Source of the DNA: Cliona cf. orientalis | Taxonomy: Eukaryota; Porifera; Demospongiae; Clionaida; Clionaidae | Length of the DNA stretch: 64,000 nucleotides | Direction of reading: 5' to 3' | Assembly (NCBI GenBank): GCA_963930775.1 | Contig: OZ005707.1 | Location: 5,022,001 to 5,086,000, forward strand | Part shown: positions 35,914 through 64,000 of the stretch, in pieces | Numbering within the stretch: position 1 is the first letter of the stretch | Layout of the letters: each line of letters opens with the position of its first letter | The notes under the pieces: generated by a model | Told to the model about the DNA's origin: nothing | The model's database searches: none | What the model saw: the letters and a program-made list of their open reading frames with translations, nothing else | Position numbers and translations under genes: made by a program

Positions 35914-38900
35914 ATGAGCAAGTTCAGGAGAGAATTGTAAGTGAGAAGACTGAATTGTTACTGTTGCTAGGGCTGCCTCGACCACACATAATAGTTGTGT
36001 GTTTATCAGACCATAAGATAACTTTCTAACACAACGTATAAAACCAGTGGTGTGTTTAATTTTAATGAGGGGATTGCTTTGTATGCCACTCACATAATTT
36101 TGCTGGTTCAACACATGTTTAAATTAATTGACCATCTCTCATACTTTGATACTCACACACATGTGGATGCAGAAAGAGTTATTTAGTGTAGTTAAGTACA
36201 GTGATGTAAACAACATGACTACGTCAATAGCTCTGTTCAATATTCTTATCTTCAGCAATGAAGCAAGCATAAAAAAAAACAATACTTGGTAAATTTTGGC
36301 ACTTGCGATTCGAGTACGGTAGTGGAACCTGTCTATAATCGTCACCCACGGGCCAAAAATCAGCGAGTAATAATTATTATAGAGGTGGCTACTTTAAAGA
36401 GGTGTATGATGTATCAAGCTTTGCCACTTGGAGCTTGAAGAAGTGGCTGCTTTTCACTGTCAATGGCCACTATACACAGGTTCGACTGTATTTATTAAAA
36501 ATTAAATGGTACTGTCCAACTGATCTTGACCACACTTGCCGTGTAGACGCTACTCGCGTGTGTACCCTGTGAGGTGTGAACTATGCTACCACCAACTCGA
36601 CTACCCTTTTGGTTTTAGTATAGTAGGCTTAATAGTATGGACTGGCTTCCATGTTGGGCAATGGTATACCAAAACATCACTGCCTGGTATAGGAATTTCA
36701 TACTGGAAACACAGTCACAGCACTGATGAGAGCTATGACCTTGTTTGTACGCTGTGGTGGCTAATAGGTTGGCTGACTGAAACGCAAGGAAACCACTAAC
36801 CTCCTCTCAACTCTCTCTCTCCCTCCCTCCCTCCCTCTCCCTTCTCCCTTCCTCCCCCACGTGATATAGTAGACTGTATGTGTGTCCTTCCTGGCCTTTC
36901 TTTATTCATGCCTCAGTCCCAATATGGTATCCATCTCCTTAAGTGTTGACAGATAGTGTTATACATGAGAGCTCTCTGTAAATAGCCTCGAGTGTGTCAG
37001 GTATTTGTGGCCATGGTTCACTGAATAGAAGTATCGGGGGTACTCCTGCTGAATGTCCTCATCACCTTATCCCAGTATTGGCCATCACTTTCTCTCACGC
37101 ACATGGTGAATGCTAATAGCTTTGCTATTTTTAAAATTTGATGAAGATTTTTGAGAGGGCTACCCAGAGACCTATCAGCACCAGTCCCTCGATCATAACA
37201 GAAGCTAAAAAGCCTCGTAAACCAGGCATCATGCTGTGCCACAGGCTAGCTTAGACAGTAGGTGAGCTGCATGGGCGTGGTCTCGCAGCCCTAGCATACG
37301 AAAATTAAAACATAAATTTATTCAGTGGACTTTTCGTGCCAGATATACAAAAATTTCCTACTGTACTGTACCATGTACATGCATCAGGTATGCGTAACTT
37401 CCTCTGTCATCACAGCCTGCTACATGACTGTACCCTAAGCTAATGGAGACCCACGGCACCGTTCCGGCCTTGTTGGACTGACTGGTATAGTATGACTAGC
37501 TGCCTCTGTATCTTATCTGATATACCAGGCATTGATATGTGATGAATGCATTGTGTGCCGTAGTGAGTACCAACAATGCGACACTCGCCCACTGTCTAGT
37601 AAACCATCTGTGCGCTGTGTCATGGTGTGTCTAATAAACAGCACCACTAGTTAATTATAGAGAATATCTTCCCTAAATGTGTAAAGATTTCATGCATTCT
37701 AATCATCTAATAGCATGGAATATCGAGAGAGGTGGTAAGATTAGACTAGTGCTCACAGCGCAGTCTTCCATGGTTGATAGGCATCACCGATGAAAAAGTA
37801 TAATCAATAGCGTTTGTTGCCACAGAAACAAAGACATGTCACTTTTTCACCATTTCCAGCCTTCATAATACTATAATATTGGCCTAGGTACCAAGACTGC
37901 ATAATTTTTGTATGGATGACAAGTCGTCAACAACAATGTACCTATGATTACCCCGCATGCCCATTCTCCTTGCATGTGCAAGGCGTTGTCACCATGTGAG
38001 AGTGCTTTGTTTCCCATAATGATGTATAAAGCTGACAATGATTTACATCACCCTGTTGTGAACTGAAAAAAAAAAACTTTGTCAAGTAGACTCACGCTCT
38101 CCCAATGGGGAAAGAGGAGCCTTTCAAAAATTATGCACAAACCTGTTGTCCAGGTTGTGCATTCAGGAAGGATTAACACCTCTGAATGTGGCCTGTCAAG
38201 AGGGCTGGGAGTGGGTGGGTCCCACGTGTGTATATATACCATACCTGCCCACCTAGCACTTGTGGGTTGCAGCCAAGAATGGGGTTTCCTGACCATCAGT
38301 GTACATATGTACATACCATTGTGGGACCACCACTCCGGACCAGAACACAACCCATAAGCTACTGGTGCATGTTTGTGTACTACATGTACATACTCAAAGA
38401 TATGCAGTATACCCTCAAATGACCTAACAGTGTCCATAAACGTATAGGTACACACACACGCTCATAGTAGTTACGTGACATTAATTGGGGGCACTTAAAT
38501 GTAACTCACTATTCAGCCTGTATGGACACTTAACCGGGATATAAATAGCCTTAGGCTGCTACATTGACTGAAATGCAGTACATGGGGGCTTTCCAGGGAG
38601 TGGGCACTTGCCCGGACACTATGGTACATACAATGTACATGTACATTGCTCACAAACTCGTGAACACAATGCCATGCACACACTGTAGAAAGAACGTCGT
38701 GTACAACTACTCTGATGCGGAGGCCAAAGTTCGTGAGGCGACCTCCAATGACCCCTGGGGTCCCAGCAGTGCCCTGATGGGTGAGCTCTCGGAGTACACA
38801 TACCACGTCCAGGCGTACGGCCTGGTCATGGGGATGCTCTGGAAGAGACTGAATGACCATGGCAAAAACTGGAGACATGTCTATAAGGTTGGCGCTACCT

Positions 38901-45210: not shown

Positions 45211-46540
45211 CTAGCTCTTGTACACCACATGGGAAGGCAGGATCACTGGTATAATCATCAGCTGAAGACTCGATAGCTGAATCCCACAAGTCAGAGGTCG
45301 TTGAAGTATTCTCATCTGGATGGGCCATCTCAGTGGATGGGCTAGGAGGGCCAGGGCCTGTTGAAGTGCTAGTGACTTGGGTGGGTGCACTAGAAACTGG
45401 CCAGAGAACTGCAACTGTTTTTGATGGGTTCCCATAATGGACCAAAATAGAGCAGTGTACTTTTCTGGTGGGACGGAACCAAAACGATGGTATCTCGGCA
45501 TTGGAGGCTGGATGTCTCCTGCATCTTGTAGTTTAATACTGATTGTCCCGCTATTACAGATTAAACAAAGATACACCCCTGTTGAGGAAATTCGTCAAAA
45601 CTTCCAATCCAATACAATGAATGATTAATCTGTGCAAGTAGTACCCCCAATAAAGTACCATGCATTTTAGGCACAGGATCGTCACTTGAACACGCGCAGC
45701 TTGGTTTTCTGACGACCCTGTACCTACTACTATATGGAGCTAGTCCACTGAACCAGAAAATGCACTAACTTTAAAAAGCATCTAAGCTACAATTCCACAC
45801 AAACAAAGACCCCATATATAGGTTTGTACCAGACGTAAGTTACCCAGAACTTTTTGCCTAGCCTATCGCCTGGCGTCTATGGGTGTGCATTATTTAGAGC
45901 TCGAGTTACAAACTGTCCCCCATGCATGCACTACATTATGCACAGTATATGGTTACAAAATAGCACACGGTATTACCTGAAGTCTCTTTCTTTTTTTTTC
46001 AGGAGACTGACTAAATCGACTGTGTTTGCTTCAGTACAAGTTATGTGGCCCTTGAAACCAGGGTCACTTCCTCCCACAGCATGTTCGTGGTTTGCAAAGG
46101 TACTCCATGTGGTTGTGTACACGTACGTGTAGGAAACGTGGGGCAGTGGGAGCGCTTGCCCCACTGGCTGCAAGTAGTGGGGGGCATTGCCCCCACAACC
46201 AGAGCCATCCAGTATTTGTTGTATTAGCCCCGGCAATTGGTTCACCACATGAAATTCATGAACAAGTGTAGCTACAAGGTATGCTCTACTTATCTTACTA
46301 CTTAATACTTCTCACTGAATCTCAGTCACTACAGCCAGAAACACTTGCCTGCCTCCCCTACTAGTATACTGCCATGCCCCGATAGTGCAACAATGGGGTA
46401 GTACCGCAGCTGTTATCAAAAAGTCCACACCATTGGTCGGTGTAATCACATGACTTAGCTTGCGCGCGCCTCTTATATGGGCTGGCTGGCCTAGTGGCAG
46501 AGCTAGTGGCAATTTCGGAGCGGACACATCATGCATGGCT
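45211..46540 (-). CDS. Unrecognised minus-strand exons
   Basis: Three open segments carry splice signals: one ending at a GTGAGA donor at 46316, one ending at a GTAATA donor at 45977 in phase 2, and a 113-codon terminal one beginning after TAG at 45550 in the matching phase (about KKKERDF-SGTISIKLQDAGDIQPP). The joined peptide (YHRFGSVPPEKYTALFWSIM and so on) matches nothing I know. In the last exon the original frame stays open to a stop at 45211, but another frame there reads a more natural acidic Ser/Thr-rich tail ending QELGYN, so a frameshift is possible. The joint from the first segment to the second was not resolved. It may be a gene fragment or pseudogene. Confidence 0.3.
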
Positions 46541-46559
46541 ATTAACTACGTGCGGGAGG

Positions 46560-47740
46560 AAGAGTGGCAGAAAAAGAAGACTCAAGGAGGACGTGTGAAT
46601 ACTGGGTGGGCTAAGGAAGAGAGGAAGAAAAAAGAATCGAGGATGTGTACTGGGACGGTGGGTTACTAGGTTTATAAGGAAAAGAGGCAAAAAAATAAAG
46701 AATTAAGAGTCAAGAGATGTATGAAGGTACTGTGTGGGCTACTAGGTTATGGAAGAGCGGCAAACAGAGGAGGAAACATTTGAGGGGGGTGTGTGAGGGT
46801 ACTGGGCAGGCTACTAGGCTAAGGAAGAGTGGCAAAAAGAGGGGACGTGTGAGGGTACTGGGATAGTGGGCTACTAGGTTATGGAAGAGAGGCAAAAAGA
46901 AGCGTCGAAGGACATGTGAGGGTACCGGGTGGGCTACTAGGTTAAGGAAGAGAGGCAAAAAAATGAAAAAAAAAGAAGTCGAGGGGGACGTGTGAGGGTA
47001 CTGGGTGGGCTACTAGGTTAAGGAAGAGAGGCAAAAAAATGAAGAAAAAAAAGAAGTCGAGGGGGACGTGTGAGGGTACTGGGTGGGCTACTAGGTTAAG
47101 GAAGAGAGGCCAAAGAAAGAGAGAAGATTGAGGGGGATGTATGAGGGTACTGGGCAGGCTACTAGGTTAAGGAAGAGAGGCCAAAGAAAGAGAGAAGACT
47201 GAGGGGGATGTATGAGGGTACTGGGCAGGCTACTAGGTTAAGAAAGAGAGGCAAAAAATGAAAAAAAAAAACAGGAAGAGTCGAGGGGGGCATGTGAGGG
47301 TACTGGGTGGGCTACTAGGTTATGGAAGAGAGGCAAAAAGAAGCGTCGAGGGACGTGTGAGGGTACCGGGTGGGTTACTAGGTTAAGGAAGAGAGGCTAA
47401 AAAATGAAAAAAAAAACCAGGAAGAGTCGAGGGGGATGTATGAGGGTACTGGGTGGGCTACTAGGTTAAGGAAGAGAGGCAAAAAAATGAAAAAAAACAG
47501 GAAGAGTCGAGGGGGACGTGTGAGGGTACTGGGCGGGTTACTAGGTTAAGGAAGAGTGGCAAAAAGAAAATTTGAGGGGGGACGTGTGAGGGTACTGGGA
47601 TGGTGGGCTACTAGATTCTACATTATGGAAGAGAAGCAACAAAGGGGAAAAAAGGAGAGTCGAGGGATGTGTGAGAGTACTGCATGGGCTACTATATATA
47701 TATAGGTTAAGAAAAAGTGGCAGAAAAAAGGATGTGTGAG
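46560..47740. repeat. Minisatellite, unit about 70-78 bp
   Basis: More than a dozen tandem copies of a unit built from GAGGGTACTGGGTGGGCTAC, TAGGTTAAGGAAGAGAGGC, an A-rich stretch and GAGGGGGACGTGTG. Copies vary in the A-run length and by point changes; the ends are more diverged than the middle. Confidence 0.92.
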
Positions 47741-48129
47741 TGTAAATAAAACAAACAGATGAAGCAATATTGAAATGTGGGAGTATTATTTAGTATGTTA
47801 CAACACTAGAGATCAGGTGTAGGCAAAGGTAAATAGATTCAGTGACATACAATGGTCATACTGGAATAATTAATGATAGATGGGGTTGAGAAGTAAGCTG
47901 CTGATGTATACAGGGATGAAATGAAGCAGTAAGGTAGTTGTAATTATACCATACCAAGTGCTTATTAAGCTGTCGTATGTAGCGAGAGGGCATGTAACCT
48001 GCATAATACTAACATAGACGGTGAAATTCTAATAGTTATATACTAAGAATAGCAAAACGTTTGCTTAGTATAGGCAACAGTACCTGGTTTTATAGCGACC
48101 TACTTCCATGCTAAGGCTTTGTTGGTAGC

Positions 48130-48720: not shown

Positions 48721-49414
48721 TTCGGCCTGTATAGGTACTTAGCCAGGATATAACTTGCACGTTTGTACAGTAGCTGCTGCATTGACCTCATGGGAACTTA
48801 CCTGGCCATGGAGTCTCTACGTATACTGTGATCTATAAGTATGGTATGTAATAATGATTGTTTGCTGGTTCTCTGTAATTGTTTGCCTTGGTCTTTCATC
48901 AGAAACTAGACAACAGTCAAGATACAGTATGATCTTTGTGGCCAACTTCATGAGAAGTGGCATGGTCCATTGCCCTCCCTCCCCCCCCCCCCCCCCACAC
49001 ACACACACACATTCAATATTGATCATCGTACAGTATGTTGCCACTGGAAATGAGTCGAAAGTTGCCTCAGTTACTCAAAGCACACCTGACTCTCAAATCA
49101 GCAGGAATAGTGAATCAGCTCAAGGAACGCTCTGTGACATGCACTTATGTGGAGTATAAAACGAACATTTATACTAAAAGACACAACACAAAATAATTTT
49201 ATTTATCTAGCTGCTAAATGTGTAGAATAGTATTATTTCTACTCTGTGACATGCAGTTCATGATTTTATGTACAATGTCATGTATCTCTTATCCTATAAT
49301 AATTACATGTATACCAACAGATGTGCAAGTATTATTTTTTCTAATAGGTGGGTGGTGGGTGGGGAAGTCTTTTTGTATAGGTAGGGGTTGGTATAAAAAC
49401 AATTGAATAATTGC

Positions 49415-50500
49415 TAAGTATGTGTTGCCATATAGAAGTATTGTGTTGCCCGTGTTGCCATATAGAAGTATTGTGTTGCTCTAGCTAAGTATGTGTTGCC
49501 ATATAGAAGTATTGTGTTGCCCGTGTTGCCATATAGAAGTATTGTGTTGCTCTAGCTAAGTATGTGTTGCCATATAGAAGTATTGTGTTGTCCTAGCTAA
49601 GTATTGTGTTGCCCTAGCTAAGTATTGTGTTGCCCGTGTGGCTCTAGCTAAGTATTGTGTTGCCCGTGTTGCTCTAGCTAAGTATGTGTTGCCCCGTGTT
49701 GCCATTTACAAGTGTTGTGTTGCCCGTGTTGCCATATAGAAGTATTGTGTTGCCCGTGTTGCTCTAGCTAAGTATGTGTTGCCCCGTGTTGCCATTTACA
49801 AGTGTTGTGTTGCCCGTGTTGCCCTAGCTAAGTATTGCGTTGCCCCGTGTTGCCATATAGAAGTATTGTGTTGCCCGTGTTGCTCTAGCTAAGTATGTGT
49901 TGCCCCGTGTTGCCATATACAAGTGTTGTGTTGCCCGTGTTGCCCTAGCTAAGTATTGTGTTGCCCGTGTTGCTCTAGCTAAGTATGTGTTGCCCCGTGT
50001 TGCCATTTACAAGTGTTGTGTTGCCCGTGTTGCCCTAGCTAAGTATTGTGTTGCCCCGTGTTGCCATATAGAAGTATTGTGTTGCCCGTGTTGCTCTAGC
50101 TAAGTATGTGTTGCCCCGTGTTGCCATATACAAGTATTGTGTTGCCCGTGTTGTCCTAGCTAAGTATTGTGTTGCCCGTGTTGCCATATAGAAGTATTGT
50201 GTTGCCCGTGTTGCTCTAGCTAAGTATGTGTTGCCCCGTGTTGCCATATACAAGTGTTGTGTTGCCCGTGTTGCCCTAGCTAAGTATTGTGTTGCCCGTG
50301 TTGCCATATAGAAGTTGTGTTGCCCGTGTTGCTCTATAGCTAAGCATGTGTTGCCATATAGAAGTATTGTGTTGCCCGTGTTGCTCTAGCTAAGTATGTG
50401 TTGTCCTAGCTAAGTATTGCGTTGCCCCGTGTTGCCATATAGCTAAGTATGGTGTTGCCATAATAGAAGTATTGTGTTGCCCATGTTGCCATGGCTAAGT
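49415..50500. repeat. Minisatellite, nested units about 28-30 bp
   Basis: About 1.1 kb built from two alternating phrases, TGTTGCCATATAGAAGTATT and TTGCTCTAGCTAAGTATGTG, linked by GTGTTGCCCGTG. Higher-order units of about 110-120 bp recur in the centre. Because units lack stops, long repetitive frames stay open on both strands (for example ATRATQYLAR on the minus strand), which I do not regard as genes. Confidence 0.93.
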
Positions 50501-55699: not shown

Positions 55700-56005
55700 T
55701 TGAGGATGAAGGTGCACCTAGAATTTGCTGGAGGAGCTGAGCTTCTGTTCAACAAAGTCAAGCAGCATGACATTGATCTTCCTGTCCAGCCCAATTCCAA
55801 ACGATGGACACTCAAGAACCTCATTGCTTGGATCAGAGACAATTTACTTCAAGAGCGGCCTGAACTCTTTGTTCTCGGAGAGACAATTCGACCTGGTATC
55901 CTCGTCCTAGTGAACAATACCGACTGGGAAATACTGGGAGAGCTAGAGTATGAACTACAGGAAGGAGACAATGTAGTTTTCATTTCAACTCTACATGGCG
56001 GGTAA
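55700..56005 (+). CDS. URM1: URM1 ubiquitin-related modifier
   Basis: Single-exon frame of 101 aa, or 99 if the second Met (55706, [15 protein letters not shown]) is used; the second start is closer to the family. Conserved positions run throughout: GGAELLF, a [10 protein letters not shown] helix, [20 protein letters not shown], and the terminal FISTLHGG. The C-terminal Gly-Gly is the residue pair activated as thiocarboxylate by the MOCS3/Uba4 enzyme, for tRNA wobble-uridine 2-thiolation and protein conjugation. Length equals that of human URM1 (101 aa). It is divergent from the receptor gene across a short shared promoter. Confidence 0.96.
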
Positions 56006-56367: not shown

Positions 56368-57816
56368 TCACTGTACACAGCAACGTATACGTACTTTAGC
56401 CTGAGAAGGTGTACTCGACTCTTCAGGTCTATCGTCCTCTGCAGTAGGTATGCGACTTCTATCCCTTAATGCTCTATCCAGAATTTTGACGAGATCTCTA
56501 TGTCCCACGTGTTCCCTCTCGTTTTTCAGGCACTTATAGAGTCGTCTGTAGGCTTGTCTGCCTTTTCGAGGCAAGATTTGCATATATAAATGGTTACCTC
56601 TCTCCATGTCAGATTGCATGCTTGTAAGTGTTTCGTAGTCATTCGAATTCACAAGTTTTCTGGAGTACAGATGTGAAAAAAGTGTGCTGAAGTCTGAATG
56701 TTTGATGAATGTGGGCGTTTCACAGCAAACTGACTCACCCAAGATGATCTCGTCGGCGTAGTTCAATTTTGTCAAGCTTGTATCACCACTCTGTGGTGGA
56801 TGTCTGTCTTTTAAAGCCTTATCAAGAATATTGACAAGGTCTGCATGTCCACAGTGTTCTTTTTCACCTTCCAAGCACTCATATAGCAGCCTGTAAGCGT
56901 GTTCACCTTTATGTGGTAATATTTGCATGTACAGATGATTTCCTCTTTGTACGTTGGACGGCATACTGTTAAGTGTTTCGTAGTCACTCGGATGCAACAG
57001 GCTTCTGGAATACATGTGTGAAACAAGCGCCTTACAATCTGTGTTGTTGACGAATCTTGGCATTTCATGGCGAACTGTGTTACGCAAAATCCTTTCATCA
57101 GCACTGGTCATTTCTGCTGAGCTGGACTTTTGTTGTTCAGCATCTTGCTGCCGGTTTTCATCAAGCTGTTTTGAAATGTTTTGCTCCTTGGATTCGGCAG
57201 TAGATTGGACTGGTGTCGATGATCTTGTGCTTCCAGGAGTGCTTACATCACTGGAATAATATGATGACGATGTGCTGGTTTTGCGACTGCGATGTGGCTC
57301 TTGTACATAATCATTGGGTGAGAGTAGTTGGGAAGTTTGCCCCTTGGGTTTGCTAGTAGATTGGTCAGACAGCAATGCTTTTGTGCTACCCGGAGTGCTT
57401 GGGTCACTGGAGCAGCAAGACGGTGCATTACTCCCTGTGCTGATTTTACGAATGCAATGTGGCCCTTGTACGTAATCATGGGGTGACAGTAGATGATGAT
57501 CTTGTCCCCTAGATTTGGTGGTGGACTTATCCGATAGCAGTGGTTTTGTGCTACCTGGAGTGCTTACATCGCTGGAATACGATGATACGTTGCTCCCTGT
57601 GCTGCTTGCACGATGTCGTTCATGTTCATTATCGTAAAGGGAGGGTAGAGTGAGGCTCTGAGGTGGATTCACAACTTCTTTACTTCTCTCAGTCGTATCT
57701 TTATTAGCCAAATCATCATTCTCGTGTAAAATGTTCGACTTGCTTTGCTTTTTGCTGTCATAACCAGAGTCCGTAGACGTAACACTCACTTTTGGCACTG
57801 ATAGATGTGTAGTCAT
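56368..57816 (-). CDS. CARD-CARD protein with C-terminal CAAX box (array member A)
   Basis: Intronless, 482 aa. Residues 1-235 are Ser/Thr-rich and disordered, with TDSGYDS at 15-21 and three copies of a phrase like SSDVSTPGSTKPLLSDKST (about 80-98, 136-154, 188-206). Two CARD-like death-fold domains follow (about 238-338 and 352-453), each with the six-helix CARD pattern: start helix, L.SHLYSRKL, DYETL, NHLYMQILPRKG, AYRRLYKCL, H.DLV.IL. The ILPRKG turn is a classic CARD feature. The last residues, RIRCCVQ, form a CAAX box (C479-C480-V-Q) predicting farnesylation, with basic residues and an extra Cys just before. The inferred role is a membrane-anchored CARD scaffold; partners are unknown. 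The two CARDs are closer to each other and to members B and C than to any CARD I can name. Confidence 0.8.
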   Translation of the reverse strand: MTTHLSVPKVSVTSTDSGYDSKKQSKSNILHENDDLANKDTTERSKEVVNPPQSLTLPSLYDNEHERHRASSTGSNVSSYSSDVSTPGSTKPLLSDKSTTKSRGQDHHLLSPHDYVQGPHCIRKISTGSNAPSCCSSDPSTPGSTKALLSDQSTSKPKGQTSQLLSPNDYVQEPHRSRKTSTSSSYYSSDVSTPGSTRSSTPVQSTAESKEQNISKQLDENRQQDAEQQKSSSAEMTSADERILRNTVRHEMPRFVNNTDCKALVSHMYSRSLLHPSDYETLNSMPSNVQRGNHLYMQILPHKGEHAYRLLYECLEGEKEHCGHADLVNILDKALKDRHPPQSGDTSLTKLNYADEIILGESVCCETPTFIKHSDFSTLFSHLYSRKLVNSNDYETLTSMQSDMERGNHLYMQILPRKGRQAYRRLYKCLKNEREHVGHRDLVKILDRALRDRSRIPTAEDDRPEESSTPSQAKVRIRCCVQ

Positions 57817-59510
57817 GATTGAATATCAAGTAAGTAGTGGGTACCTATCACAGGAGGTAAATTTTAATTGTACACTGAATTATAATATGTTTGTAGCAGT
57901 GCATGAACAAATTCAATGCATGCAGTCGAAGTCGATACATGTACGTAGCTACTGTAGTTATGTAGTGGACATTCAATGTTTGTCTAGCTATAATATTATG
58001 TAAATAGCTAAATCTTCTCGGGATGATCAGATAGATGCATGTGGCTAACTAATAACAACAACTATTGTTGAGAATGACCACAAACAGCGATAATCAACCG
58101 CAAATGCTTAATACGGGGCTTACCGTATAATATTATATCGATCCAGCAGCACTCGAGGCCGTTGCAAACGTACGTCCTCTTTGTTTCTCAGCGAATGTCT
58201 TTCTTTCTTCTTTTCTTTCTTTCTTTCTTGCATGTAGCTGCTTCGTTCGGTAAGCTATCATCAGCAGCAGCTACCATGCATGGGATTGGCTCAGCTGGCT
58301 CTAGCAAATCATCCTACGGCTACGTGTACAGGGCCATGGACTGAGGGAATTTTTCTATGACGTGTTTACGCAGCTTAGCTATTTGCGTAGCATAACGATA
58401 TTCACTGTTTCCTCCATTCCACTAAAGAAAATCATCATCATTTTTTTATATAACGGAGTGTGAAAGCAATTGAACTTTTAAGATAATCATCATCACATGA
58501 TTTCAGACAACAGAGCATGAAAACAATTGCACGATTTTGTCCAGCTGACATCATTCTTGTGCATGCTATTTCCCTATCATAAGATTATGCTCTATACTCT
58601 ATACACCATGCAACTATGGCACATTTTCATAATATTATACATTTGTGCATTTTTGCATGTAGCAGATCATGCAACATTTAATACTCTTTCTACGTGATAG
58701 AATCTCTTAAGTTGATCATTCCAGCCGAGAATACACAATATCATCCACTCTTGATCTAGAAGACAGACATTTTTATTGGTCCAGTATAGCTGCAAGCCTT
58801 TGTTTGCTGAGTCAAATGCTGACACAACAGCTGTAGCTGTAGCTATATATGTAATCGCAAAGTTTGGATTGTTAATGAGATTGCTGGGGGAGTGAACAAT
58901 TTCACCGACGCACTATTTCAAGTAATAATTTTGGCATATGGCACACCACAAATGAATAATCATGGTGCAGTGCTAGTACCCTCAGCTAATATACATTGCA
59001 CTGTACGCTTGCAACAATAATTATGAACATATTAAAATACATTGACATACCAAGTATCCTCCCTTATAATAATTTCTGTCAAAACAAATCACTATTTGAC
59101 GTCATCTTAGATTCTCTGGATCCATCTATGCGCAGCCTCTATCATCACTGAGAGATCAGATCTCCCACACTCTCAGGCTGGCACAAAGAATTCCCCTGCT
59201 ACTAATTACTTTCAATCTATTAAAGCCACAGGTGATCATTGCCATCACTAGTACAGCATGCACAGTACACGATAGGTATGTGTATCTAGTATACTGTAAA
59301 TTTATCACAACATTAATTTGAAGTATTAGCAGTTGCTCAGTCACTAGAGGTCTATCATGCACACCCCACGTTTAACTATCCATGTCAGTAGCTATTCCTC
59401 TCCTTATGTACATGAGTGGTAAAAGATGTGCAACTTCATTCCATGCAATAAATTTAGTAAAGTTAAACAAGAAAAGAGGGTGGGGTATGCATGCTCAGTG
59501 GTCTGCTAGA
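57817..59510. other. Spacer between CARD genes A and B
   Basis: Upstream region of gene A and downstream region of gene B. AT-rich. A TTCT microsatellite (about 58198-58233) gives a short plus-strand frame (from 58186) that mimics a signal peptide followed by GKLSSAAATMHGIGSAGSSK; I do not count it as a gene. Nothing else supported. Confidence 0.6.
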
Positions 59511-60353
59511 TCACTGTACAGTGCAACATATTACAGTGCAACATAGTTTAGCCTTTGAGTGTGTGTGCATTTTGTCGGACTGACTGTTCTCTGTAGTAGG
59601 GCTGCTATCAGCACTGCTGTGTGGTGAATTTCTGTCCTTTAATGCTTTATCCAAAATTTCGACGAGGTCTCTATGTCCAGCATGTTCCGTCTCATTCCTT
59701 AGGCACTCATAGAGTTGTCTGTACGTGTGTCTGCCTTTGCTTGGCAAGATTTCCATGTACAAACGGTTTCTCCTTTCCTTATCTGATAACATATTCGTAA
59801 GTGTTGTGTAGTCACTTGTATGCAGAAGTTTTCTTGAGTATAGATAAGCGCAAATAGAGTCAAAATCTGTATAAGTAACAAACATGGGCATTTCACGGCG
59901 AACTGTGTCACGTAAGATGATCTCATCAGCATAATTCAGTTTTGCTCGGTTTGGTTGCACCTTTGGTGCTTGCTTCTCAGCTTCCAGACCACAGAAATCG
60001 TCCCTTAGATTTAAAGTGAGACTATTTCTCCTGGATTGATCCAATAGCGGTCTTGTGCTAACAGGAGTGCTTGCAAAACTGGAACAAGATGGATTACTTT
60101 CAGCACTACCTCTGCGTGTATCTTGTACACCAGGATGCATAAATGTAAGTGGATGGAAATTATTTTTGTAGTAGAGACCAGCAGCATTTTCAGAATCTGA
60201 AATTATTCTTGGTTCTTCTAATAATTCTTCAATTGGAAAAATACTGGTAGATCTGCTACCTTCGCTCAAAATATGCATGTGAATGTCCACCCTGCTTGAT
60301 GTTTGGCTCTCATAGCCAGACTCAGTGCTATTCTTATGATCCATGGCACACAA
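59511..60353 (-). CDS. CARD protein with C-terminal CAAX box (array member B)
   Basis: Intronless, 280 aa (277 if the Met at 60344, which has better start context, is used). Residues 10-16 are TESGYES, the counterpart of TDSGYDS in A. The middle carries one copy of the STPVSTRPLLDQS phrase. A single CARD at about 141-240 (LNYADEIILRDTVRREMP ... LYMEILPSKGRHTYRQLYECL ... HRDLVEILDKAL) is very close to both CARDs of A. After a Ser-rich linker (SSPTTENSQSD, shared with C) the protein ends CCTVICCTVQ: a CTVQ CAAX box predicting farnesylation, preceded by further cysteines that could be palmitoylated. Confidence 0.8.
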   Translation of the reverse strand: MCAMDHKNSTESGYESQTSSRVDIHMHILSEGSRSTSIFPIEELLEEPRIISDSENAAGLYYKNNFHPLTFMHPGVQDTRRGSAESNPSCSSFASTPVSTRPLLDQSRRNSLTLNLRDDFCGLEAEKQAPKVQPNRAKLNYADEIILRDTVRREMPMFVTYTDFDSICAYLYSRKLLHTSDYTTLTNMLSDKERRNRLYMEILPSKGRHTYRQLYECLRNETEHAGHRDLVEILDKALKDRNSPHSSADSSPTTENSQSDKMHTHSKAKLCCTVICCTVQ

Positions 60354-61156
60354 TATTTAATTATAGAGCAGCTTGAATCTGGAATGCATGTATGATGTAA
60401 TACCACAATGAAAACTACTGTAGCAAGCTAGTATGCATACGCCAGTACAGACAGTTGTGTCGTCTAACCATTCTAGGTACGTAATTCCCTATCTTCACAC
60501 ACAGTTTGTAATAACTTTGAGTGTGAACATTAATAATTCTCAACCCTACAAAGTGATTTTCATAAATAACTTACTAATAGATAACTACATAGCCAGATAT
60601 AATATTATTATAATTAGTGTTCTCAGTTGTTAAAATAGTCTATTAAGCTGTGGCAAATACAGCTATAGTTGTACAAGAATAGCTGAAAATTCTGTGTTAA
60701 CTTTATATTATTACTTCAATCAGTCTTGCAGCTGGGTAGCTGCATTTTTATAGCTTACCAATTAGCTCCACCTGCCTCCAATTGTTGCTTCTGTGCTTGA
60801 GATAGTTCTGCCAATTATTGCATCACTGGTCAAGGCTTTAACAATAATACCTCCTTTACTTCTGAGCATGGCATTGTAGACTAAGCATCGATAATGCTGT
60901 GAGGTTGTGTTGTCTGCAGGCATGACGTCAGGTTTAGGGGATTTTGCCGGTCCATTATAATTATATTCACAAAGTCATTTCCTACATTCTTTCTGTGGTG
61001 GGTGTAGATGAAAGTCGCTGCCCTTTGCCTGAGATCATAACTATGAATTAGTTTCTCCAACCTATATATAGCACATTAATTTTATACAATGCATATTAAA
61101 TGGATCTACTTTACAATAGTATTTAACATTGATTGAAGCGGGTTTACATGCAAGAA
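60354..61156. other. Spacer between CARD genes B and C
   Basis: AT-rich intergenic DNA with no exon, RNA gene or repeat that I can support. Confidence 0.6.
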
Positions 61157-62353
61157 CTAGAGAATAGTGCAGCATGATCCGTTTGTTCTCCCATTTCTGT
61201 TTGCAGCTTTATGGCTACTTTGACTGGACGGCAGAGCCTCTTTTGAGCAGTTTGGATCTCTCTTGACTTCATCACTGATAATATCGATAAGCTGGCTGTG
61301 TATGTACGTGCATGGAGGGCTGTGAACAATATGCATGGGACAACCATCATCACCTTTAAAAGAAAGTTTCTCATTACCACAGAGAGTATCATCAAATGAC
61401 GATCTGTTTACGTCAGCTTTCAAAGATGAAGGAGGGTTGCTACAGTCACTCAGTCTATGGAAAGTTCCTTGCTCAGTTTCGGAATTATTTTCAGTTGTGG
61501 GGCTGCTATCTGGGCTGCTCTGAGGTGAGTGTTCCCCTCTTAGGGCTCTTTCAAGCACCTCTACCAAATCTTTGTGGCCTAGGTGCTGGGTCTCTCTCTT
61601 CAGACACTTGTAAAGCCGTCTATAAGCACGTGCACCTTTACGTGGCAGTATAATTGTGTAAAAATGGTTTGCCTTTTCTTGGTGTGATGGCAGTTTTTCT
61701 AAATCTTCACATTCCCCAGAATGTAACAGTTCTTTTTCAAACAAATGTGGCACAAGACTCACAAAGTTTGTACGCTCAGTAAATAGATGTGTTTTATTCA
61801 CTACAGCTTTCTTCAAGATACATTCTTGCTCAGCTGTCGAGCTTATAGAGTGACTAGACTTAGCTGTCGAGTGACTAGACTTGGCTGGCTGTGATTGACT
61901 CTCTCCCGAAGAAGTAAGTGTAATATGCAGTATACTCTTTTGTGATTGAGACCCAGATGACGATAGAGTAACTGAGATTGGAAGGTGACTCTCATTGAAG
62001 TGCATAATACTTGGTTGTGATGCCTCACTCGATGCTAGTCTTTGATAATCTGGGATATTGGTAAATTGTAATCCAGTTGGAGTTTCCGATCTGACAATGG
62101 CTTCACCTTCTGTAATACTAGCAAGAGAGCTGGACATAATATTATGTAAGGAGGACAGTCTTTGTGATAAGTTTCCACTTCTTTCCTTCATTTCTTCTAT
62201 AGTTGGCAAGTCTGAGCTCTTTCTTAGTAGAGAAGCACTTATTTCTCTGCTTGGAGCATAGCCAGAGTCAACAGACCCTGCCTCAGATGTCTTTCTTGGT
62301 GATGGTACACCTAGCAAGTTAGAATCTGATGAAGACATTTTCTCTTGGTCCAT
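61157..62353 (-). CDS. CARD protein with C-terminal CAAX box (array member C)
   Basis: Intronless, 398 aa, the most diverged member. SVDSGYAPS at 27-35 replaces the degron-like motif of A and B. A Ser-rich region follows (two SSSG.SQSQ-type phrases and SSHSTAKSSHS). The single CARD is at about 173-273 (ECILKKAVVNKTHLFTE ... FYTIILPRKGARAYRRLYKCL ... HKDLVEVLERAL). The linker SPQSSPDSSPTTENN is shared with B, then a unique about 100-residue extension. It ends NGSCCTIL; with Leu last, the CTIL box predicts geranylgeranylation rather than farnesylation. Start context: first Met of MDQEKMSSSDSN. Confidence 0.8.
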   Translation of the reverse strand: MDQEKMSSSDSNLLGVPSPRKTSEAGSVDSGYAPSREISASLLRKSSDLPTIEEMKERSGNLSQRLSSLHNIMSSSLASITEGEAIVRSETPTGLQFTNIPDYQRLASSEASQPSIMHFNESHLPISVTLSSSGSQSQKSILHITLTSSGESQSQPAKSSHSTAKSSHSISSTAEQECILKKAVVNKTHLFTERTNFVSLVPHLFEKELLHSGECEDLEKLPSHQEKANHFYTIILPRKGARAYRRLYKCLKRETQHLGHKDLVEVLERALRGEHSPQSSPDSSPTTENNSETEQGTFHRLSDCSNPPSSLKADVNRSSFDDTLCGNEKLSFKGDDGCPMHIVHSPPCTYIHSQLIDIISDEVKRDPNCSKEALPSSQSSHKAANRNGRTNGSCCTIL

Positions 62354-63819: not shown

Positions 63820-64000
63820 ATGAGTAAGAAGCTTGCACATTCACACTCATTGCGGCGAAGGTGTTTCGCAAAATCAGATCTCCTCCTTCCTGACTCCTGC
63901 AATGCATCTGGCGGAGCAGATCAAGATCCCAGTACACCAAAGACTCCTGACGATCACACTCCAGCCGCCCTCATTACTATTGAGGATGCAGACAACAGCA
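63820..64000 (+). CDS. Partial frame running off the window
   Basis: An ATG at 63820 opens 60 codons without a stop to the window edge: MSKKLAHSHSLRRRCFAKSD, then LLLPDSCNASGGADQDPSTP and a Pro/Thr/Asp-rich stretch. Composition suits a disordered N-terminus of a real protein on the plus strand, divergent from the CARD array. Not identifiable from this fragment. Confidence 0.4.
   Translation, partial: MSKKLAHSHSLRRRCFAKSDLLLPDSCNASGGADQDPSTPKTPDDHTPAALITIEDADNS

Follow-up and report, generated by a model that had tools for sequence, protein, structure and literature searches.

Tandem CARD genes with conserved CAAX boxes and a degron-like motif in the sponge Cliona cf. orientalis

A 64,000-nucleotide window of the genome of the demosponge Cliona cf. 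orientalis (contig OZ005707.1, positions 5,022,001 to 5,086,000) contains three neighboring genes, denoted as A, B, and C, which all lie on the reverse (−) strand and encode a Ser/Thr-rich N-terminus, one or two CARDs, and a C-terminal CAAX box, as a first-pass annotation of this DNA had described. We consider it rather probable that the three proteins are lipid-anchored CARD adaptors with phosphorylation-triggered turnover. The parts of this architecture are known singly, and the conserved combination of a CARD, a CAAX box, and a degron-like motif appears to be new. The first-pass annotation had also envisaged a lipid-anchored death-fold signaling hub, a proposal that gains support from the CARDs, the conserved CAAX boxes, and the prenylation enzyme genes described below; we infer the lipidation, localization, partners, and turnover of A, B, and C from their sequences. 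The searched assembly comprises 216.8 Mb in 149 contigs, and the window sits within a 7.2-Mb contig.

CARD domains and C-terminal CAAX boxes

Gene A (56368–57816 of the window, 482 amino acids) encodes two CARDs, at residues 238–337 (56806–57105) and 353–452 (56461–56760), and ends in the CAAX box CCVQ (56371–56382). Gene B (59511–60344) encodes 277 amino acids from the ATG at 60344, and its open frame extends to a TTG at 60353 (59511–60353); it has a single CARD at residues 138–237 (59634–59933) and the tail CCTVICCTVQ, with the CAAX box CTVQ at 59514–59525. Gene C (61157–62353, 398 amino acids) has one CARD at residues 174–273 (61535–61834), followed by a long tail and the CAAX box CTIL (61160–61171). 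The terminal residues are RIRCCVQ in A, ICCTVQ in B, and GSCCTIL in C. All features of the three genes lie on the (−) strand. The earlier claim that they are intronless holds as far as the open frames go, each gene being one uninterrupted frame; such genes may have arisen from a retrocopy that spread in tandem.

The CARDs were placed with a family profile built from eight B-type CARDs, which assigns two domains to A and one each to B and C; Pfam also supports the second CARD of A and that of C, and a structure model supports that of B. The Pfam CARD family (PF00619) matches A (1.1e-8, two stretches, 35.4 bits) and C (1e-5, 25.9 bits) above the curated cut-off of 23.9 bits, whereas B falls below it (0.0045, 17.4 bits). 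The predicted structure of B is a six-helix bundle with a two-part helix 1, matching solved CARDs in the Foldseek matches inspected. These results show that A and C carry CARD sequence and that the modeled B has the CARD fold. The CARD-type domains named in the first-pass annotation are thereby confirmed, and the comparison with hidden Markov models and structures that it had called for yielded a fold compatible with the death fold. Across the family, PF00619 matches 24 of 33 members at E ≤ 0.01. The CARDs of A and B share 59–63% identity among themselves, and that of C is 40–47% identical to them.

Three protein searches (P0001–P0033) found 31 relatives, which together with A, B, and C make a family of 34. 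P0008 is A itself and P0020 is a shorter C, while P0001 and P0023, whose listed contigs equal that of P0008 in size (1,395,072), probably represent alleles of B and C. Within its own genome, the B protein gave high scores for A, B, and C only, followed by a fourth CARD gene and weaker CARDs (28 matches, E ≤ 1). A profile search to E = 10 matched 29 proteins, all of the family at 3.5e-60 or better, and returned no relatives beyond it among the 7993 candidates scored as sharing most words; since the known members P0010, P0012, P0013, and P0017 were missing from its results, this search is neither exhaustive nor exclusive of distant relatives. Equal contig sizes, the sole basis for this comparison, suggest that A-type with C-type or B-type with C-type genes are neighbors in other genomes too (P0007/P0022, 18,623; P0006/P0014/P0024, 21,495; P0010/P0028, 477,815; P0012/P0033, 12,083).

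The CAAX cysteine is conserved throughout the family. It occupies position −4 in 33 of the 34 members, and the only protein lacking it, P0032, is truncated. PS00294, in what we take to be its pattern, matches 32 of the 34, and C-x-[VIM]-[QL] matches 31; the intact-ended exceptions are two close A-type proteins, P0019 (CCAW) and P0006 (CCVK). Wherever the tail is intact (33 members), this cysteine is without exception the fourth residue counted from the C-terminus. Position −2 is V, I, M, or A in 19, 12, 1, and 1 tails, position −1 is Q, L, K, or W in 17, 14, 1, and 1, and position −5 is Cys in 27, while positions −3 and −6 to −14 are variable. As read from the aligned tails, such constraints are those of a CAAX box. 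Even the 15-bp in-frame duplication at the extreme end of B (59517–59545), which repeats CCTV ahead of the CAAX end (CCTVI-CCTVQ) and is present in P0001 and absent from P0002, preserves that end.

The terminal cysteines might instead remain unprenylated and serve S-acylation alone, metal binding, or disulfides, a use that would suit both the frequent Cys at −5 (27 of 33) and the paired cysteines at −4 and −3 in A. None of these uses requires what the tails display, namely constrained positions −2 (V/I/M in 32 of 33) and −1 (Q/L in 31 of 33) beside a free −3 and a cysteine fixed fourth from the end, as a CAAX reader would; we regard this alternative as very improbable. A hydropathy scan, rather than a trained predictor, detected no transmembrane-like stretch in A, B, or C, and a transmembrane anchor was rejected on the highest 19-residue mean hydropathies of 0.61, 0.56, and 0.67, respectively.

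A maximum-likelihood tree of 41 CARDs, from which P0032 and P0033 were left out and whose root on the long branch of the fourth CARD gene is unsure, sets a C clade (15 rows, support 98/94) apart from the A/B rows. Since the CAAX box occurs in both groups, it probably predates their split. This distribution also bears on whether unrelated CARD genes acquired CAAX-like ends by chance. Four of the 259 ATG-initiated frames of at least 40 amino acids in the window end in PS00294, three of them being A, B, and C, and the one further frame is a point in favor of chance; Cys at −4 occurs in 12 of the 259, A, B, and C included. Among the best-scoring 30 CARD frames elsewhere in the genome (30 of 90 matches), many of which are exons rather than gene ends, none has Cys at −4 and none matches PS00294 (0/30 each). 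The first-pass annotation had argued from three paralogs that conservation spoke against chance, and the recurrence of the box on both sides of the split between C and A/B strengthens that argument. Because the CAAX box is conserved across the family, we rejected chance, to which we assign a negligible probability.

Degron-like motif and neighboring genes

The Ser/Thr-rich N-terminus is poorly conserved outside a single motif, [DE]SG[YF]x(1-3)S, which is present in 30 of the 34 members. Column conservation locates it at DSGYDS in A (57754–57771), ESGYES in B (60306–60323), and DSGYAPS in C (62249–62269). Among the remaining four members, P0029 and P0030 apparently begin past the site, P0016 has DSGS, and no such motif was seen in P0033. 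In an alignment of 31 N-termini, which excludes P0029 and P0030 (stretch missing) and P0033, the motif columns contain D/E in 31, S in 31, G in 31, Y/F in 30, S in 31, and a further S in 31. In shuffled versions of the 139 N-terminal residues of A, B, and C, the pattern appeared within the first 45 residues in 0.055–0.11% of trials. A further motif, STP-x-ST[RK]-x-LL or a close variant, is common to most A- and B-type proteins and is found as STPGSTKPLL in A (57535–57564, with a second copy at 57370–57399) and as STPVSTRPLL in B (60042–60071).

By its sequence, the conserved motif resembles the β-TrCP phosphodegron of IκB. That phosphodegron, DSGXXS, also lies near the N-terminus in the description excerpted from PMC6027159, and the DSG-φ-x-S degron of β-TrCP substrates is closely matched by the motif that 30 of the 34 family members carry. 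The genome contains a β-TrCP gene (D domain, 8.1e-17) and a Rel-domain gene. Alternatively, the motif could serve a different partner, such as a kinase or 14-3-3, as its docking or phosphorylation site, in which case the anchor reading would be unaffected. Such a role is favored by the further serine that the motif reaches in 29 of 34 members (x3-S), beyond the classic DSGXXS, and by the wider spacing of Y and S in C-type members, which have one or two residues more there. The close fit to DSG-φ-x-S, the IκB-like position near the N-terminus, and the presence of β-TrCP argue against it, and we hold this non-degron role to be somewhat unlikely, though of real weight.

The fourth CARD gene starts head-to-head with C (63820–64000, (+) strand, continuing to L041:3559). 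As predicted by eye, it is spliced from three exons, runs off the window, and ends in HALS with no CAAX box, thus serving as a negative control. Its CARD is 34–38% identical to the family CARDs, and it holds two DSG stretches and an STR-x-L-type stretch, its sequences including DSGVGLS and DSGITDESTRLL. As judged from these DSG stretches in a gene with no CAAX box, a Ser/Thr-rich region with a DSG motif may have preceded the box. Elsewhere in the genome, a CARD-only open frame of 123 amino acids (L012, 1408–1779, (−)) ends in CGILL, with Cys at −5 and not at −4. The death-fold repertoire is large. Before correction for exons and copies, it amounts to 90 CARD matches at E ≤ 1, with A, B, and C among them, at least 150 Death matches, for which 150 of 1292 candidates were scored, and 65 DED matches.

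The array is adjoined by a gene for the ubiquitin-like modifier Urm1 (55700–56005, (+), Pfam 3.5e-38). The NF-κB-like sequence GGGRNWYYCC has 11 matches in the window against 3.77 expected, which span 9299–38594; with the last of them at 38594, none is near the CARD genes. The window also contains a purine-rich minisatellite array (46791–47599, periods 63–146 bp; GC skew 0.41 across 46001–48000) and a minisatellite of GTGTTGCC units (49413–50500, reported periods 20–211 bp). The genome also contains silicatein-like exons (L066 and L070), which are cathepsin-L-like with Ser replacing the catalytic Cys (CGASYAFS); silicatein is a demosponge protein, and among PDB entries the L070 exon matches silicatein alpha best (3.6e-26), followed by cathsilicatein (1.1e-19) and the best cathepsin (4.2e-19), in keeping with a demosponge host.

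Proposed membrane anchoring and turnover

The CAAX enzymes looked for in the host are all encoded in its genome, namely the β subunits of farnesyltransferase (FTase) and geranylgeranyltransferase I (GGTase-I) and an ICMT-family gene. The ICMT family has matches in 5 of 14 prokaryotes used as controls as well. By the usual rule, a CAAX box with Gln as X is farnesylated and one with Leu is geranylgeranylated. Gln occupies the X position in 6 of 8 members of the A type and in 8 of 9 of the B type (14 of 17 together), and Leu does so in 13 of the 16 that belong to the C type. Under that rule, A and B are probably farnesylated and C is probably geranylgeranylated, as far as the tails allow a prediction.

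These features are consistent with the following mechanism. FTase would farnesylate A and B, GGTase-I would geranylgeranylate C, and ICMT would finish the prenylated tail, while the cysteine at −5, where present, may receive a palmitoyl group like that on the CC-x-V-L end of RhoB. The modified tails would hold the proteins at the cytosolic side of a membrane and leave their CARDs facing outward. CARD assembly could then be seeded on this surface by an activated CARD receptor or caspase, so that the signal would form at the membrane, like that of MAVS. Kinases would subsequently phosphorylate the DSG serines, β-TrCP would mark the adaptor for degradation, and the CARD platform would be removed, as reported for BCL10.

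The main rival reading is that of membrane-held decoys, in which the CARDs bind and cap those of receptors or caspases and keep them inactive at the membrane until the DSG motif is phosphorylated, whereupon the decoy is destroyed and its partner released in an IκB-like switch. No feature found distinguishes an activator from an inhibitor, and the two CARDs of A would seem to suit bridging rather than capping; we consider decoys unlikely. Returning to the adaptors, a broader proposal can be offered only tentatively, at somewhat less than even confidence: that demosponges evolved self-terminating membrane CARD platforms belonging to neither the MAVS nor the CARMA-BCL10-MALT1 lineage. In these, the transmembrane tail would be replaced by a CAAX lipid, an IκB-type phosphodegron would reside in the same protein, and paralogs would be sorted to different membranes by farnesyl (A and B) or geranylgeranyl (C) groups. 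The site at which a death fold assembles in the cell helps to decide its function. If the adaptor mechanism is true, location should depend on a single cysteine and stability on two serines, and membrane-tethered CARD adaptors with regulated turnover would appear to have arisen more than once.

Comparison with known systems

The first-pass annotation knew of no family coupling a CARD to prenylation, and this stands for the titles and abstract openings of the open-licence literature searched, where no CARD protein with a CAAX box was found. By term count, "caax" and "prenyl" are absent from the main text of a 2026 paper on sponge NLRs (PMC12909245). A lipid tail with a built-in destruction tag is an unusual pairing for immune-adaptor-like CARD proteins.

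MAVS is a CARD adaptor concentrated at a membrane, as A, B, and C would be, but it uses a transmembrane tail, which A, B, and C lack, where these would use a CAAX lipid. Its CARD is at the N-terminus, whereas those of A, B, and C lie in the middle or C-terminal half. BCL10 consists of an N-terminal CARD followed by a Ser/Thr-rich tail and, to our knowledge, has no CAAX box. It thus combines the same two regions in reversed order, as the CARDs start at residue 238 in A, 138 in B, and 174 in C. In an excerpted report, BCL10 is ubiquitinated for degradation by β-TrCP and c-IAP2 after IKKβ (PMC6237847), and this β-TrCP-linked turnover after phosphorylation may be likened to that proposed for A, B, and C.

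NOD1 and NOD2 illustrate how lipidation brings a CARD protein to the membrane, as proposed here. They differ in being large NACHT-LRR receptors palmitoylated by ZDHHC5, and we know of no CAAX box in either. The signaling of NOD2 requires S-acylation, as an excerpt of PMC12005342 states. OAS1 p46 and GBP1, GBP2, and GBP5, all of innate immunity, have a CAAX box as A, B, and C do, but they are a nucleotidyltransferase and GTPases without a CARD. OAS1 p46 ends in CTIL, the same box as that of C. Use of the box in immunity is described in excerpts for p46 (PMC10854198) and for some GBPs (PMC12071787). The zebrafish GBP-NLRP1-like CARD protein (4irl) carries its CARD at the C-terminus. With the CARD in this position, it presumably has no CAAX box.

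RhoB offers a comparison for the tail. According to excerpts of one study (PMC4160200), its CC-x-V-L end carries both a prenyl and a palmitoyl group, and proteins given its CINCCKVL tail reach endolysosomal membranes in cells ranging from human to fungus, a targeting that fails upon a change of the CAAX cysteine or a block of isoprenoid synthesis. The family shares the CC end, the residues at −5 and −4 both being Cys in 27 of the 33 intact tails; RhoB is a GTPase, however, and farnesylation is expected for the A/B-type members, most of which end in Gln. The membrane CARD proteins compared here are anchored by a transmembrane helix (MAVS) or by palmitoylation (NOD1 and NOD2), and a conserved family of CAAX-box CARD proteins, if true, would represent a third way of anchoring, in an early-branching animal.

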